Positions 3,523-34,870 of a stretch of DNA of 51,626 nucleotides are shown in pieces; position 1 is the first letter of the stretch; each line of letters opens with the position of its first letter. Both the position numbers and the translations under genes were made by a program. The notes below the pieces were generated by a model that saw only the letters and a program-made list of their open reading frames with translations, ran no database searches and had not been told where the DNA came from. Source of the DNA: a virus; IMG/VR virus record IMGVR_UViG_3300013131_000060, positions 1 through 51,626 of that record; one strand, given 5' to 3'.

Positions 3523-3541
3523 AATAAAAATAAATCCGATC
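3518..3541 (-). terminator. A/T-rich hairpin at the end of the sigma gene
   Basis: GGATT and AATCC arms flank an AAAATAAAAATA loop, giving a T-rich run on the minus strand just past the sigma stop. It is a weak candidate terminator, possibly acting in both directions. Confidence 0.35.
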
Positions 3542-4461
3542 TAAGGGACTTGACTAGAAAAAAAAGTATTTACGACATATTGAATTTTTTTGATGATATT
3601 TTGTTGTTTTTGGCGGACGGCATGTTTACTGATTCCGCTAGTTTCTGCGATTTCTTTTGCTGAAACAGGTTGGCAGCCAATTCCATACTTTTGCTTGACA
3701 AGCTCTTGCTCTTCTTCTGGCAAAGCGCTGATAATGGTTAAGATAAAGTTTATTTTTTCGAGGCTGTCGTCGTTATCTTCGTCTGACGCGCTTGCTGGAA
3801 TTAGCTCCAGCAACGAAATCTGATCGCCACTTTGGCTTACATTCGAGTCCAAAGAAACAACTACCGAATCAGCAAGCAAGGTTTTTTTTACTTTTTCTAT
3901 GTCCTCTTCCATGTCAATAGCTATCTCAGCGACTGTCGGCTCTTTTTTGAGAATTAACGTCAATTTATCTCTGGTTTCTCTGATTTGCCTTGCTGTTTTC
4001 TGCATATTCGATGGCATTCGAATTGCCTTCTCTTGAGACTCAGTGGCCCTTACTATTCCTTGCCTTATCCACCAGTAGGCGTAAGTGCTGAATTTATATC
4101 CACGACCTGGCTCAAATTTTTCAGATGCTCTGGTCAAACCAATTGCACCTTCTTGAATTAAGTCTTGAATCGTAAGATGAGTTTGCGTTGTTTTAATTTT
4201 TTTTGCAACAGCGACCACGAGCCTCATGTTTGCTGAAATCATTCGACTTCTTGCTCTCAGCCCTCTTTTTATTACTAACCTCGCTTCTGGACTTAAATTT
4301 TTAGTGGAATCAAGAAGATTTTTTTGCGATATTTGTTCATTTAGCCCGTTGTCCCTGAGAATTTTTATCATTTTCTGGATATATCCCCCAAGTATTATCT
4401 CTTCGTCGGATGTCAGCAATGGAACACGAACTATATCTGCTGAATACTCTTCAAGGCTCAT
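3541..4461 (-). CDS. Phage-encoded sigma-70 family factor, group-2 like
   Basis: The 306 residues follow the sigma-70 order: a region 1.2-like VRVPLLTSDEEIILG (residues 11-25), region 2 with MISANMRLVVAVAKKI and LIQEGAIGLTRASEKF (74-116), GYKFSTYAYWWIRQGI (121-136) for promoter melting and -10 contact, region 3 (148-215), and region 4 with AKEIAETSGISKHAVRQ for -35 contact. It should direct host RNA polymerase to chosen promoters. The region 1.2 text resembles cyanobacterial group 2 sigmas, suggesting host origin. It is adenine/thymine-rich compared with the structural genes. It may read late or repeated accessory promoters (inference). Confidence 0.9.
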   Translation of the reverse strand: MSLEEYSADIVRVPLLTSDEEIILGGYIQKMIKILRDNGLNEQISQKNLLDSTKNLSPEARLVIKRGLRARSRMISANMRLVVAVAKKIKTTQTHLTIQDLIQEGAIGLTRASEKFEPGRGYKFSTYAYWWIRQGIVRATESQEKAIRMPSNMQKTARQIRETRDKLTLILKKEPTVAEIAIDMEEDIEKVKKTLLADSVVVSLDSNVSQSGDQISLLELIPASASDEDNDDSLEKINFILTIISALPEEEQELVKQKYGIGCQPVSAKEIAETSGISKHAVRQKQQNIIKKIQYVVNTFFSSQVP

Positions 4462-5349: not shown

Positions 5350-6177
5350 ATGGCGCGTATTAAGGCTCAGCAGACTTTTACTGCTTTACCAAATTGGATT
5401 ATTGAAAAACAAAAGCGACGGCTTGGTTGGTTGTCTTGTCACGAACTTTGTGTTTTGCTCATTCTCCAGCATTTTGCTAGTGGAGCTGGACAGGGCGATG
5501 ACGTTTTCCCTAGTCAAAGCACTATTGCGGCTTGCGCCGGAATCAGTAAAAGTTCTGTCATCAGGTCGATTGCAGGGCTTGTCGAGAAAAATCTCATAGA
5601 AAAAATTCCGAGATATGATGAACTTGGCCAAAAAACAAATTTATATCGCTTAATGATTTGGGACGGTCTTCCGGTTGGCAACGAGGCTCGCCCCACTCCA
5701 CCCCCCGTGTCAGGGGGACACTACCCCCTGTCAATCGGACAAGCCCCCCATGTCACACAGGAAGGGGCCCCCTGTCAGGGTGACACACGAACAAGAACCA
5801 TTGAACAAGAACCAATGAACAATAAAAACCCCCCTATATCCCCCCAGCAGCCAAAACAGCCTCCAGCAGGGGTAGAACTGCCTGAGTGGCTGAATCCTTA
5901 TCGTGAGCATCTGTTGCAATGGCTTGATAGAAGACAAAAAAAATACAAACTCAAGCCAGAGCTTACAAGTTCAACCATGCGTGCTCTTGAGTATGCAAGG
6001 GATGCTGGAGTTCTTGAATTTTATTGCGAATATGTTTCCGAAAGAAATTGGCAATCACTTGGGTTTGCTGGACACAAGGATACTATTGAGAAACTTGCAA
6101 AAGAAAACGGCATAGCAACTAAAACATTAAATCAAGGCAGACCAGTAATGTCGCCTATCATCTACACTTTGAATTAA
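5350..6177 (+). CDS. Helix-turn-helix replication initiator (lambda O-like)
   Basis: Residues 10-100 form a winged helix of the HTH_36 type, with SQSTIAACAGISKSSVIRSI as the DNA-reading helices and LVEKNLIEKI as the wing. A Pro-rich linker follows, then a C-terminal domain (residues 175-255) that could contact the helicase. Lambda O and similar initiators carry their origin iterons inside their own gene, and here four iterons lie in the linker-coding part. The gene directly abuts the DnaB-type helicase gene. A longer frame begins at 5269 but overlaps the RHH gene, so the ATG at 5350 is preferred. Confidence 0.75.
   Translation: MARIKAQQTFTALPNWIIEKQKRRLGWLSCHELCVLLILQHFASGAGQGDDVFPSQSTIAACAGISKSSVIRSIAGLVEKNLIEKIPRYDELGQKTNLYRLMIWDGLPVGNEARPTPPPVSGGHYPLSIGQAPHVTQEGAPCQGDTRTRTIEQEPMNNKNPPISPQQPKQPPAGVELPEWLNPYREHLLQWLDRRQKKYKLKPELTSSTMRALEYARDAGVLEFYCEYVSERNWQSLGFAGHKDTIEKLAKENGIATKTLNQGRPVMSPIIYTLN
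5701..5850 (+). other. Candidate phage replication origin with four phased iterons
   Basis: TGTCAGGGGGACA (5708), TGTCAATCGGACA (5729), TGTCACACAGGAA (5751) and TGTCAGGGTGACA (5773) start 21, 22 and 22 bases apart, about two helical turns. Each follows a C-rich run, and three share the inverted form TGTCA-N4-GACA. An A-rich stretch with the direct repeat GAACAAGAACCA follows at 5789-5835 and could be the unwinding element. The arrangement matches the lambda-type origin inside an initiator gene. Confidence 0.65.
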
Positions 6178-33376: not shown

Positions 33377-33904
33377 ATGACTCAATTCAGTCAAAACGGT
33401 ACAACAATGTACCAAAACGCCCCTGGCTACGACCCAGACCTTGATGATTCAGACTTCAAAGATAAAGATGGACAAGGCTTCATTCTTTTATACAAGTCTG
33501 GAGTTACAAGTTTGACCAAGATGGTTACAGAAGGAAAGCTGCTGAACAGGGATATTAGAGTTTTACTTGTTTATATTCACCATGTAGATTGGAGGAACGG
33601 ACGTTGCAGGTTGACGGTTCAGAAAGCAGCTGAGATCATCGGATACAAAGTTGCTACCTTGCAGACTTGTGTTAAAAGGTTGAAGAAAGTCGGCTTGCTG
33701 GTTCCCATTAAAGATAGCAAGACTGGCGAAAGACTACTTATTGTCAGTCCTTACATAATAAAGGTTGGGTCAAGTCAAAGTAGAGGATACTTGGCCAAAC
33801 TTTACCATGAGGCAATTGCAGAGAATGAACCCTGGAAGTCGCACCCTACACTTTCCCCTGCTGGCGATGACTTAGAAGATCCAGGCTGGGCTGATAAACT
33901 TTAA
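33377..33904 (+). CDS. Winged-helix protein, RepL-like initiator or regulator
   Basis: Residues 45-130 form a winged helix: LNRDIRVLLVYIHHVDWRNG, LTVQKAAEIIGYKVATLQTC as the reading helix, VKRLKKVGLLVPIKD and LLIVSPYIIKVG as the wing. This is the layout of RepL-type plasmid replication proteins and of some phage regulators. The adjacent kilobase of repeats and palindromes downstream is what a replication or partition site might look like (inference). The C-terminus is Pro/Asp-rich and disordered. Confidence 0.55.
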   Translation: MTQFSQNGTTMYQNAPGYDPDLDDSDFKDKDGQGFILLYKSGVTSLTKMVTEGKLLNRDIRVLLVYIHHVDWRNGRCRLTVQKAAEIIGYKVATLQTCVKRLKKVGLLVPIKDSKTGERLLIVSPYIIKVGSSQSRGYLAKLYHEAIAENEPWKSHPTLSPAGDDLEDPGWADKL

Positions 33905-34200: not shown

Positions 34201-34298
34201 CCATTCAGTTTACACATTAAGCCATTCACTTTAGACCATTCACCCTAAGCCATTCACTTTAGACCATTCACTTTAGACCATTCACTTTAGGCCATTCA
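34201..34298 (+). repeat. CCATTCA array, 14-base spacing
   Basis: CCATTCA starts at 34201, 34222, 34236, 34250, 34264, 34278 and 34292. The spacing is 21 once and then exactly 14, with CTTTAGA or CCCTAAG words between. Confidence 0.9.
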
Positions 34299-34341
34299 TC
34301 TTAAACCTTACGCCATTTATCCTACACGCTAAAGGCCACAC

Positions 34342-34460
34342 GTTACATGTTACATGCTACACCCTACACCTTGCACCCTACACCTTGCACGTTGCACCTT
34401 GCACGCTGCACGCTGCACGTTGCACGTTGCAGGTTGCAGGTTGCAGGTTGCAGGTTGCAG
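34342..34460 (+). repeat. Tandem heptamer array, 17 units
   Basis: Seventeen consecutive 7-mers run without a break: GTTACAT twice, GCTACAC, CCTACAC, CTTGCAC, CCTACAC, CTTGCAC, GTTGCAC, CTTGCAC, GCTGCAC twice, GTTGCAC, then GTTGCAG five times. Consensus (G/C)(T/C)T(A/G)CA(C/G/T). The organisation is like the short tandemly repeated heptamers known from filamentous cyanobacteria, though with a different word. Confidence 0.92.
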
Positions 34461-34483
34461 GTGCTACAATGAAGGATGGACCC

Positions 34484-34870
34484 TACAGGTTACAAGCTAC
34501 AAGCTTATAGGTTACAGGTTACAGGTTCTACTATAAACCTATAGTTTACAGTTTATAAGCTTATAGTCTCTACTAGATACCTTATAGGCTAAAACTTGCA
34601 AGTTAAAGCATAGACTTAAACTTTACAGTTTATAAGTTTATAGTTTACAGGTTGCAAGCTTATAGGTTCAATCCTGGAAACCTACTATAAGTTTATAGTT
34701 TGCAAAATATAAGTTTATAGGTTCAATCAGTTTATAGAAAGGTAAGCTTATAGGTTCTACGCTATAAACTTATAAGTTGCAGGTTGCAAGTTTATAGGTT
34801 AAATCCTGGAAAGTTAATGTTCACTATCCCGCAACTTGCAAGTTATAGCATAAGCCTATATCTTGCAAGT
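34484..34870 (+). repeat. A/T-rich heptamer-like words
   Basis: Interspersed GTTACAG, GTTTATA, GCTTATA and GGTTCAATC words, with repeated TTATAGGTT(C/A). Many are inverted relative to each other (TATAAAC...GTTTATA), allowing foldback structures. Confidence 0.7.

Follow-up and report, generated by a model that had tools for sequence, protein, structure and literature searches.

Phased palindromes within a viral initiator gene

Can the place at which an uncultured virus begins to copy its genome be read from repeats that lie inside one of its own genes? The question is raised by a virus contig of 51,626 nucleotides (IMG/VR record IMGVR_UViG_3300013131_000060, positions 1 to 51,626; hereafter the window, meaning the whole stretch analysed), in which four repeated palindromes, or iterons, lie within a gene for a helix-turn-helix (HTH) replication initiator. 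We conclude that positions 5707-5828 are very probably a phage replication origin placed inside its own initiator gene, of the type found in phages lambda and P22. Judging from sequence, the iterons are almost certainly binding sites of the initiator encoded by that same gene. The locus comprises the following features.

5350..6177, + strand: initiator gene, an open reading frame (ORF) of 275 amino acids with an HTH_36 winged helix, a disordered linker and a C-terminal helical domain
5545..5565, + strand: recognition-helix codons S-K-S-S-V-I-R (residues 66-72), located from the predicted winged helix; they vary with the iteron half-site in relatives
5707..5721, + strand: iteron 1, GTGTCAGGGGGACAC
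5728..5742, + strand: iteron 2, CTGTCAATCGGACAA
5750..5764, + strand: iteron 3, ATGTCACACAGGAAG, with a degenerate right arm; the equivalent site in the related locus L006 is a perfect palindrome
5772..5786, + strand: iteron 4, CTGTCAGGGTGACAC
5787..5828, + strand: A-rich presumed unwinding element, with 14-mers GAACAAGAACCATT (5789) and GAACAAGAACCAAT (5803) and a partial third (5817)
5828..5845, + strand: C-rich double box ACCCCCCTATATCCCCCC; similar boxes stand in the same place in mEp554, P22, L051 and L121
6178..7611, + strand: DnaB-like replicative helicase gene, directly downstream of the initiator gene

The HTH_36 (PF13730) match of the initiator in Pfam (E 9e-8) scores 32.2 bits, above the curated cut-off of 25 bits, and among the PHROG families it matches a replication initiation protein best (5.9e-15). 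In the AlphaFold2 model a winged helix occupies residues 15-101, and residues 107-178 have no structure and form a predicted disordered linker. The nearest solved fold relative of the N-terminal domain is that of DnaD (2V79), with the plasmid RepA N-domains 4PT7 and 5KBJ lower in the list of fold matches. Phage_rep_O (PF04492) gave no Pfam match at E<1, and RepA_N (PF06970) was absent among the Pfam matches of this protein. The adjoining gene matches Pfam DnaB_C (3.6e-57) and the DnaB-like PHROG (1.2e-54), in agreement with an earlier reading of the bare letters (the sequence-only reading), which had proposed an HTH initiator gene next to DnaB; the helicase is presumed to be the partner loaded at the origin.

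TGTCA begins at 5708, 5729, 5751 and 5773, in steps of 21, 22 and 22 bp, and sites 1, 2 and 4 have the form TGTCA-N4-GACA, the right arm being lost in site 3 (TGTCACACAGGAA); the number, spacing and form previously reported for these repeats were thus correct. TGTC-N5-GACA occurs three times in the 51.6-kb window, each time in this cluster. Because the iterons encode residues 120-146 and the predicted disorder spans 107-178, the repeats fall exactly in the linker, where they had been placed before. The locus thereby combines four phased iterons, located within the initiator gene between its N- and C-terminal domains, with an adjoining A-rich tract, and it belongs to a class that we define by two or more TGTCA-N4-GACA, spaced in steps of 20-24 bp, within the linker of an HTH initiator.

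The layout resembles that of known internal origins

The A-rich stretch said to follow the iterons is indeed there, as a tandem repeat of the 14-mer GAACAAGAACCAAT at 5789-5822 (2.4 copies, 95% match). It is conserved at 38 of 44 positions in L006 and is kept in another relative, L007, despite the different iterons of that locus. Cumulative guanine-cytosine (GC) skew, proposed beforehand as a check for an origin near 5.7 kb, reaches its lowest value at 5864 and its highest at 33794, and the minimum fits an origin at ~5.8 kb as supporting evidence only.

A C-rich double box (ACCCCC, a T-rich stretch, CCCCC) stands right after the A-rich tract in the window (5828-5845), L020, L457 (P22), L051 and L121, whose initiators are unrelated, and in P22 and L121 a G run that could pair with it lies 3' of the box. 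As a general element the box was discarded, being present in 3 of 41 cases against 0 and 1 in control stretches, which is not significant.

The sequence-only reading had called the locus a lambda-style origin. An origin in the initiator linker remains the best reading, but the closest described layout is that of P22 (gene 18, then gene 12), not lambda O/P. In P22 the origin is internal to the initiator gene, as proposed for the window; as in the window, a DnaB-like helicase gene stands directly after it, and palindromic iterons of 5+N5+5 bases (TTACC-AGATC-GGTAA) are followed by two A-rich 14-mers and then a C-rich box, ACCCCCTTACCCCC; the P22 initiator differs in belonging to Phage_rep_O instead of HTH_36, and the iteron sequence is another. 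Lambda ori, in gene O, likewise has four mid-gene iterons in the linker, imperfect palindromes CCCTC-AAAAC-GAGGG that conform to the 5+N5+5 geometry, followed by an A-rich tract (PMC7466680). Unlike the window, lambda has a Phage_rep_O initiator (PF04492 matches lambda O, P22 gp18 and the viral locus L225) and unrelated iterons, and its P protein brings in the host DnaB; the window itself encodes a DnaB-like helicase, and no P was seen there.

The palindrome of the window recurs in the O-like gene of Escherichia phage mEp554 (mEpimmI group), which is also HTH_36; four copies, GTGTCAGAGAGACAC or GTGTCACAGTGACAC, stand at steps of ~22-23 bp and are accompanied by an A-rich tract and a C-rich box. 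Its recognition helix reads SKSTAMR against SKSSVIR in the window, and its C-terminal domain and gene order are different; the paper on mEpimmI-group phages mentions neither iterons nor an origin (PMC11893012). The earlier description of the window's iterons as unrelated therefore stands with respect to lambda CCCTC-N5-GAGGG but not more widely, since the same palindrome is shared with many viral initiator linkers, that of coliphage mEp554 included.

In the staphylococcal RepA_N plasmids pSK41 and pPR9 the Rep boxes lie centrally in rep, the N-domain binds them and the central linker is dispensable; in pPR9, which replicates, the N-domain and origin have been naturally exchanged for an HTH_36-like set (PMC5703833). 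These are plasmids with other iterons, and the window protein has no RepA_N match. The pPR9 iterons were rejected as a 5+N5+5 frame and consist of repeated CCGTTTACTGAAAATCCGGATACGG instead. Salmonella phage L also has a DnaB-type helicase gene after its gene 18 (PMC8022706); on inspection its repeats (TGTCCAACGGA) were direct repeats without the TGTC-N5-GACA palindrome and were not counted in the class. The initiators of lambda, P22 and L seem each to recognise a different set of iterons, located in the coding region of the initiator itself (PMC8022706). Origins of this kind are already known from lambda, P22, phage L, pSK41 and pPR9, and the window adds one member.

By analogy with lambda O (PMC7466680) and pSK41 Rep (PMC5703833), dimers of the N-terminal winged helix would bind the four 15-bp palindromes, each with 5-bp half-sites and a 5-bp spacer. 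Steps of 21-22 bp place the palindromes on one face of the DNA helix, so that the dimers could stack, probably cooperatively, into one nucleoprotein body. This body would strain and melt the adjacent A-rich 14-mer tract, and the C-terminal domain may then bring in the DnaB-like helicase from the next gene. Because the linker is unstructured, DNA signals can be accommodated in its codons whatever the frame. The repeats, with their geometry, phase, frame independence, conservation and palindrome/helix covariation, are observed features of the window and its relatives, on which this analogy for binding, melting and helicase loading would build.

The same sites could instead serve autorepression or copy control, as an operator or incompatibility element, with replication starting elsewhere. 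Among the proteins related to the HTH domain in sequence or fold are several MarR-type repressors that bind palindromes, and binding sites alone are no proof of an origin. However, the iterons lie ~360 bp inside the gene, promoter-like sites near them on the coding strand were not above shuffles, the iterons of the class are followed by an A-rich repeated tract, and the equivalent layout is a proven origin in both lambda (PMC7466680) and pSK41 (PMC5703833). We thus regard a purely regulatory role as improbable.

The repeats are constrained as DNA

A proline-rich, low-complexity linker might produce iteron-like coding repeats by chance or through tandem duplication at the protein level, and this linker is both C-rich and predicted to be disordered. 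Against this, synonymous shuffling gave p ~1e-4: three palindromes within 100 bp arose in 1.5e-4 of the re-coding trials of the gene and four TGTCA in 5e-5, with 3e-4 and 4.5e-4, respectively, under within-gene codon permutation. These p-values are optimistic because the motif was picked after being seen, and the evidential weight consequently rests on independent tests. An open scan for gapped palindromes with 4-bp arms, present three times within 120 bp, returned the iteron cluster, a run of A/T at 10.7 kb and a set of repeats at 34.4-34.8 kb; applied to ten Markov-shuffled versions of the window, the same scan gave 2 matches in total. The iterons use reading frames 1, 1, 2 and 0 and encode the peptides VSGGH, LSIGQ, VTQEG and CQGDT; since they fall in all three codon frames, the repeats are a DNA-level and not a protein-level feature. 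All three frames are also used by the five repeats of a relative, L005, and L468, an enterobacterial relative of mEp554, has six perfect palindromes in frames 2,1,2,1,2,1 at steps of 23,22,23,22,23. Between the window and L006, iteron bases are identical at 34 of 36 positions, against 37 of 66 for the other linker bases.

A scan of IMG/VR for two TGTCA-N4-GACA 6-14 bp apart, based on DNA only and using no protein information, found at least 119 loci. Among the matches listed, an HTH-initiator ORF lay over the motif in 84 of 119, and the steps peaked at 22 and 23 bp. The single control, with permuted arms (TCTGA-N4-CAGA), placed 0 of 120 loci in an initiator, its matches coming mainly from one conserved coding stretch. 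A paired-motif scan of genome contigs was set aside as mostly chance (118 loci with broad spacing, only 4 of them with an HTH initiator).

Reducing the listed IMG/VR matches at 60% identity left 45 nonredundant TGTCA initiator genes, 41 of which use at least two frames. Their commonest steps within 20-24 bp are again 22 and 23, and steps that are multiples of three number 20 of 86, below expectation (p 0.001 against 2/5, 0.05 against 1/3). The 40 bases after the last iteron contain 40-44% A, compared with 23-32% in flanking stretches, and this tract has a 12-13-bp periodicity (z 5.4 and 3.8; 41-45 nonredundant initiators) that is found neither upstream nor further down. Recurrence of one DNA motif in unrelated linkers, recovered without reference to protein, makes a low-complexity linker a very unlikely source of the repeats.

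The palindrome changes with the recognition helix

The pairing of helix and iteron was followed in relatives of the Prochlorococcus phage MED4-184 initiator, gathered by protein only; the iterons of P-HS2/MED4-184 are themselves GTTCA-N5-TGAAC. TGTCA/TGACA repeats were present in 23 of 23 unique linkers from genes with an S[RK]S[ST]VIR or SPRTVIR helix and in 1 of 46 others (p 2e-17, not corrected for kinship). Relatives with the gene and no repeats had been named beforehand as a finding that would count against an origin here; the outcome was the opposite, since relatives without TGTCA repeats carry different repeats in the same place, together with a different recognition helix. Thus S[RK]S[ST]VIR helices pair with a GTGTC half-site, SRDKVIK with GTCGT-N5-ACGAC, CRTKVIH with GTTCA-N5-TGAAC, CRSKVIH with GTGTA-N5-TACAC, SRRKVIK with GTGCA-N5-TGCAC and GRNKVVK with GTATC-type sites. 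Palindromes with odd spacers (5, 7) were strongly enriched and those with even spacers were not, which indicates that the palindrome frame is constant.

When mapped onto a tree of the C-terminal domain, the helix class switches at least 9 times. Three pairs are independent of one another on well-supported branches; in two to three of them the iterons changed in the same way as the helix, and in none did they change in the opposite way. Within the clade of the window, L007, L489 and L490 have the helix SRNSAIK and different repeats (CAGTCCACCACAGAGACC; GTSCA-type iterons in L007), yet their A-rich tract and C-terminal domain are almost unchanged. A Bacillus smithii plasmid gene pairs HRRTAIK with GTGAA-N5-TTCAC; a search with its protein found no related loci. 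Across the 43 readable genes of the TGTCA class, read by eye, Arg occupies helix position 7 in all 43, a count made within the class only, and nearly all fit S-x-x-[TSAVN]-x-x-R.

Most IMG/VR matches are HTH_36, L225 is Phage_rep_O and L181 is RepA_N, so the palindrome recurs in carriers from three Pfam families. L181 (Staphylococcus agnetis, from the genome scan; 5577-5658) has four TGTCAAAACGACA at 23-bp steps in its initiator, followed by tandem AATGATACTGATATT, and its helix departs from the Arg-position-7 rule.

Among the enterobacterial mEp554 relatives, SKSTAMR goes with six TGTC-N5-GACA in L468, and SKRTAMR in L467 mostly with TGAC/GTCA half-sites; the cyanophage pair SRSSVIR/SPRTVIR made the same half-site shift independently. 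A rule by which Arg in position 3 of the helix would invariably specify TGAC was dropped: it holds in L467 and L437/L440, but SRR-/SER-type helices elsewhere keep TGTC. In L469-L486, which are mEpimmI-like prophages, the C-terminal initiator region of mEp554 is combined with an N-domain of unrelated sequence and with other repeats (GGTCATGA), so that here too N-domain and iterons have been exchanged together.

That the sites belong to some other protein (a host factor, partition or recombination) and are merely located in the initiator gene has nothing direct in its favour, short palindromes being used by many DNA-binding proteins, and is scarcely credible when, across several families, a change of palindrome goes with a change in the recognition helix encoded by the gene around it.

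Points against the probable origin, and its genome context

Several observations weigh against an origin at 5707-5828. The C-terminal domain has no match to a known helicase loader, and its AlphaFold2 model is poor, with a predicted local distance difference test score (pLDDT) mostly below 50. Full palindromes are present at three of the four window sites, compared with four of four in L006. After correction for kinship the covariation comes down to the three independent pairs, too few for significance on their own. The skew minimum is partly local, reflecting the C-rich iteron region, and partly an effect of gene direction, both of which sharpen it, hence its supporting role only. Finally, the IMG/VR contig may represent part of a genome only, and a second origin could then lie elsewhere.

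One further gene bears on the identity of the virus.

3541-4461, - strand: gene of the phage for an RNA polymerase sigma factor, which shares ~37% identity with its group 2 counterpart in Synechococcus phage S-CBS3

The closest relatives of this sigma factor are from Synechococcus phages S-CBS3, S-CBS1 and KBS-S-2A, and those of the terminase from KBS-S-2A and S-H1. Because both proteins are closest to those phages, the virus is likely a cyanophage, which bears out the context first proposed for it. At 34222-34800, near the cumulative GC-skew maximum (33.8 kb), dense 7-, 14- and 21-bp tandem repeats (CCATTCACTTTAGA, CACGTTG and TTATAGGTTACAGG-like) occur without an obvious long ORF; this array could be a terminus, packaging or regulatory region.

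Implications

Neither the TGTC-N5-GACA class nor the covariation between helix and half-site was found described in the open literature, which leaves out most subscription papers, and it is this shared palindrome, together with the helix that varies with it, that most deserves further work. We tentatively propose, with slightly more doubt than belief, that initiators of phages and plasmids share a recognition code that can be read, in which a 5+N5+5 frame would be fixed and the half-site set by a few recognition-helix residues. The TGTC class would recur among initiators of the HTH_36, Phage_rep_O and RepA_N families, in viruses that infect many hosts, and N-domain and origin would travel from genome to genome as a unit. 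Beyond a few model phages, origins are seldom annotated in phage genomes. If phased palindromes in initiator linkers mark origins, then origins would become readable from sequence in many uncultured viruses, and the natural series of helices and half-sites would make the choice of origin by an initiator, and hence the coexistence of replicons, testable residue by residue.
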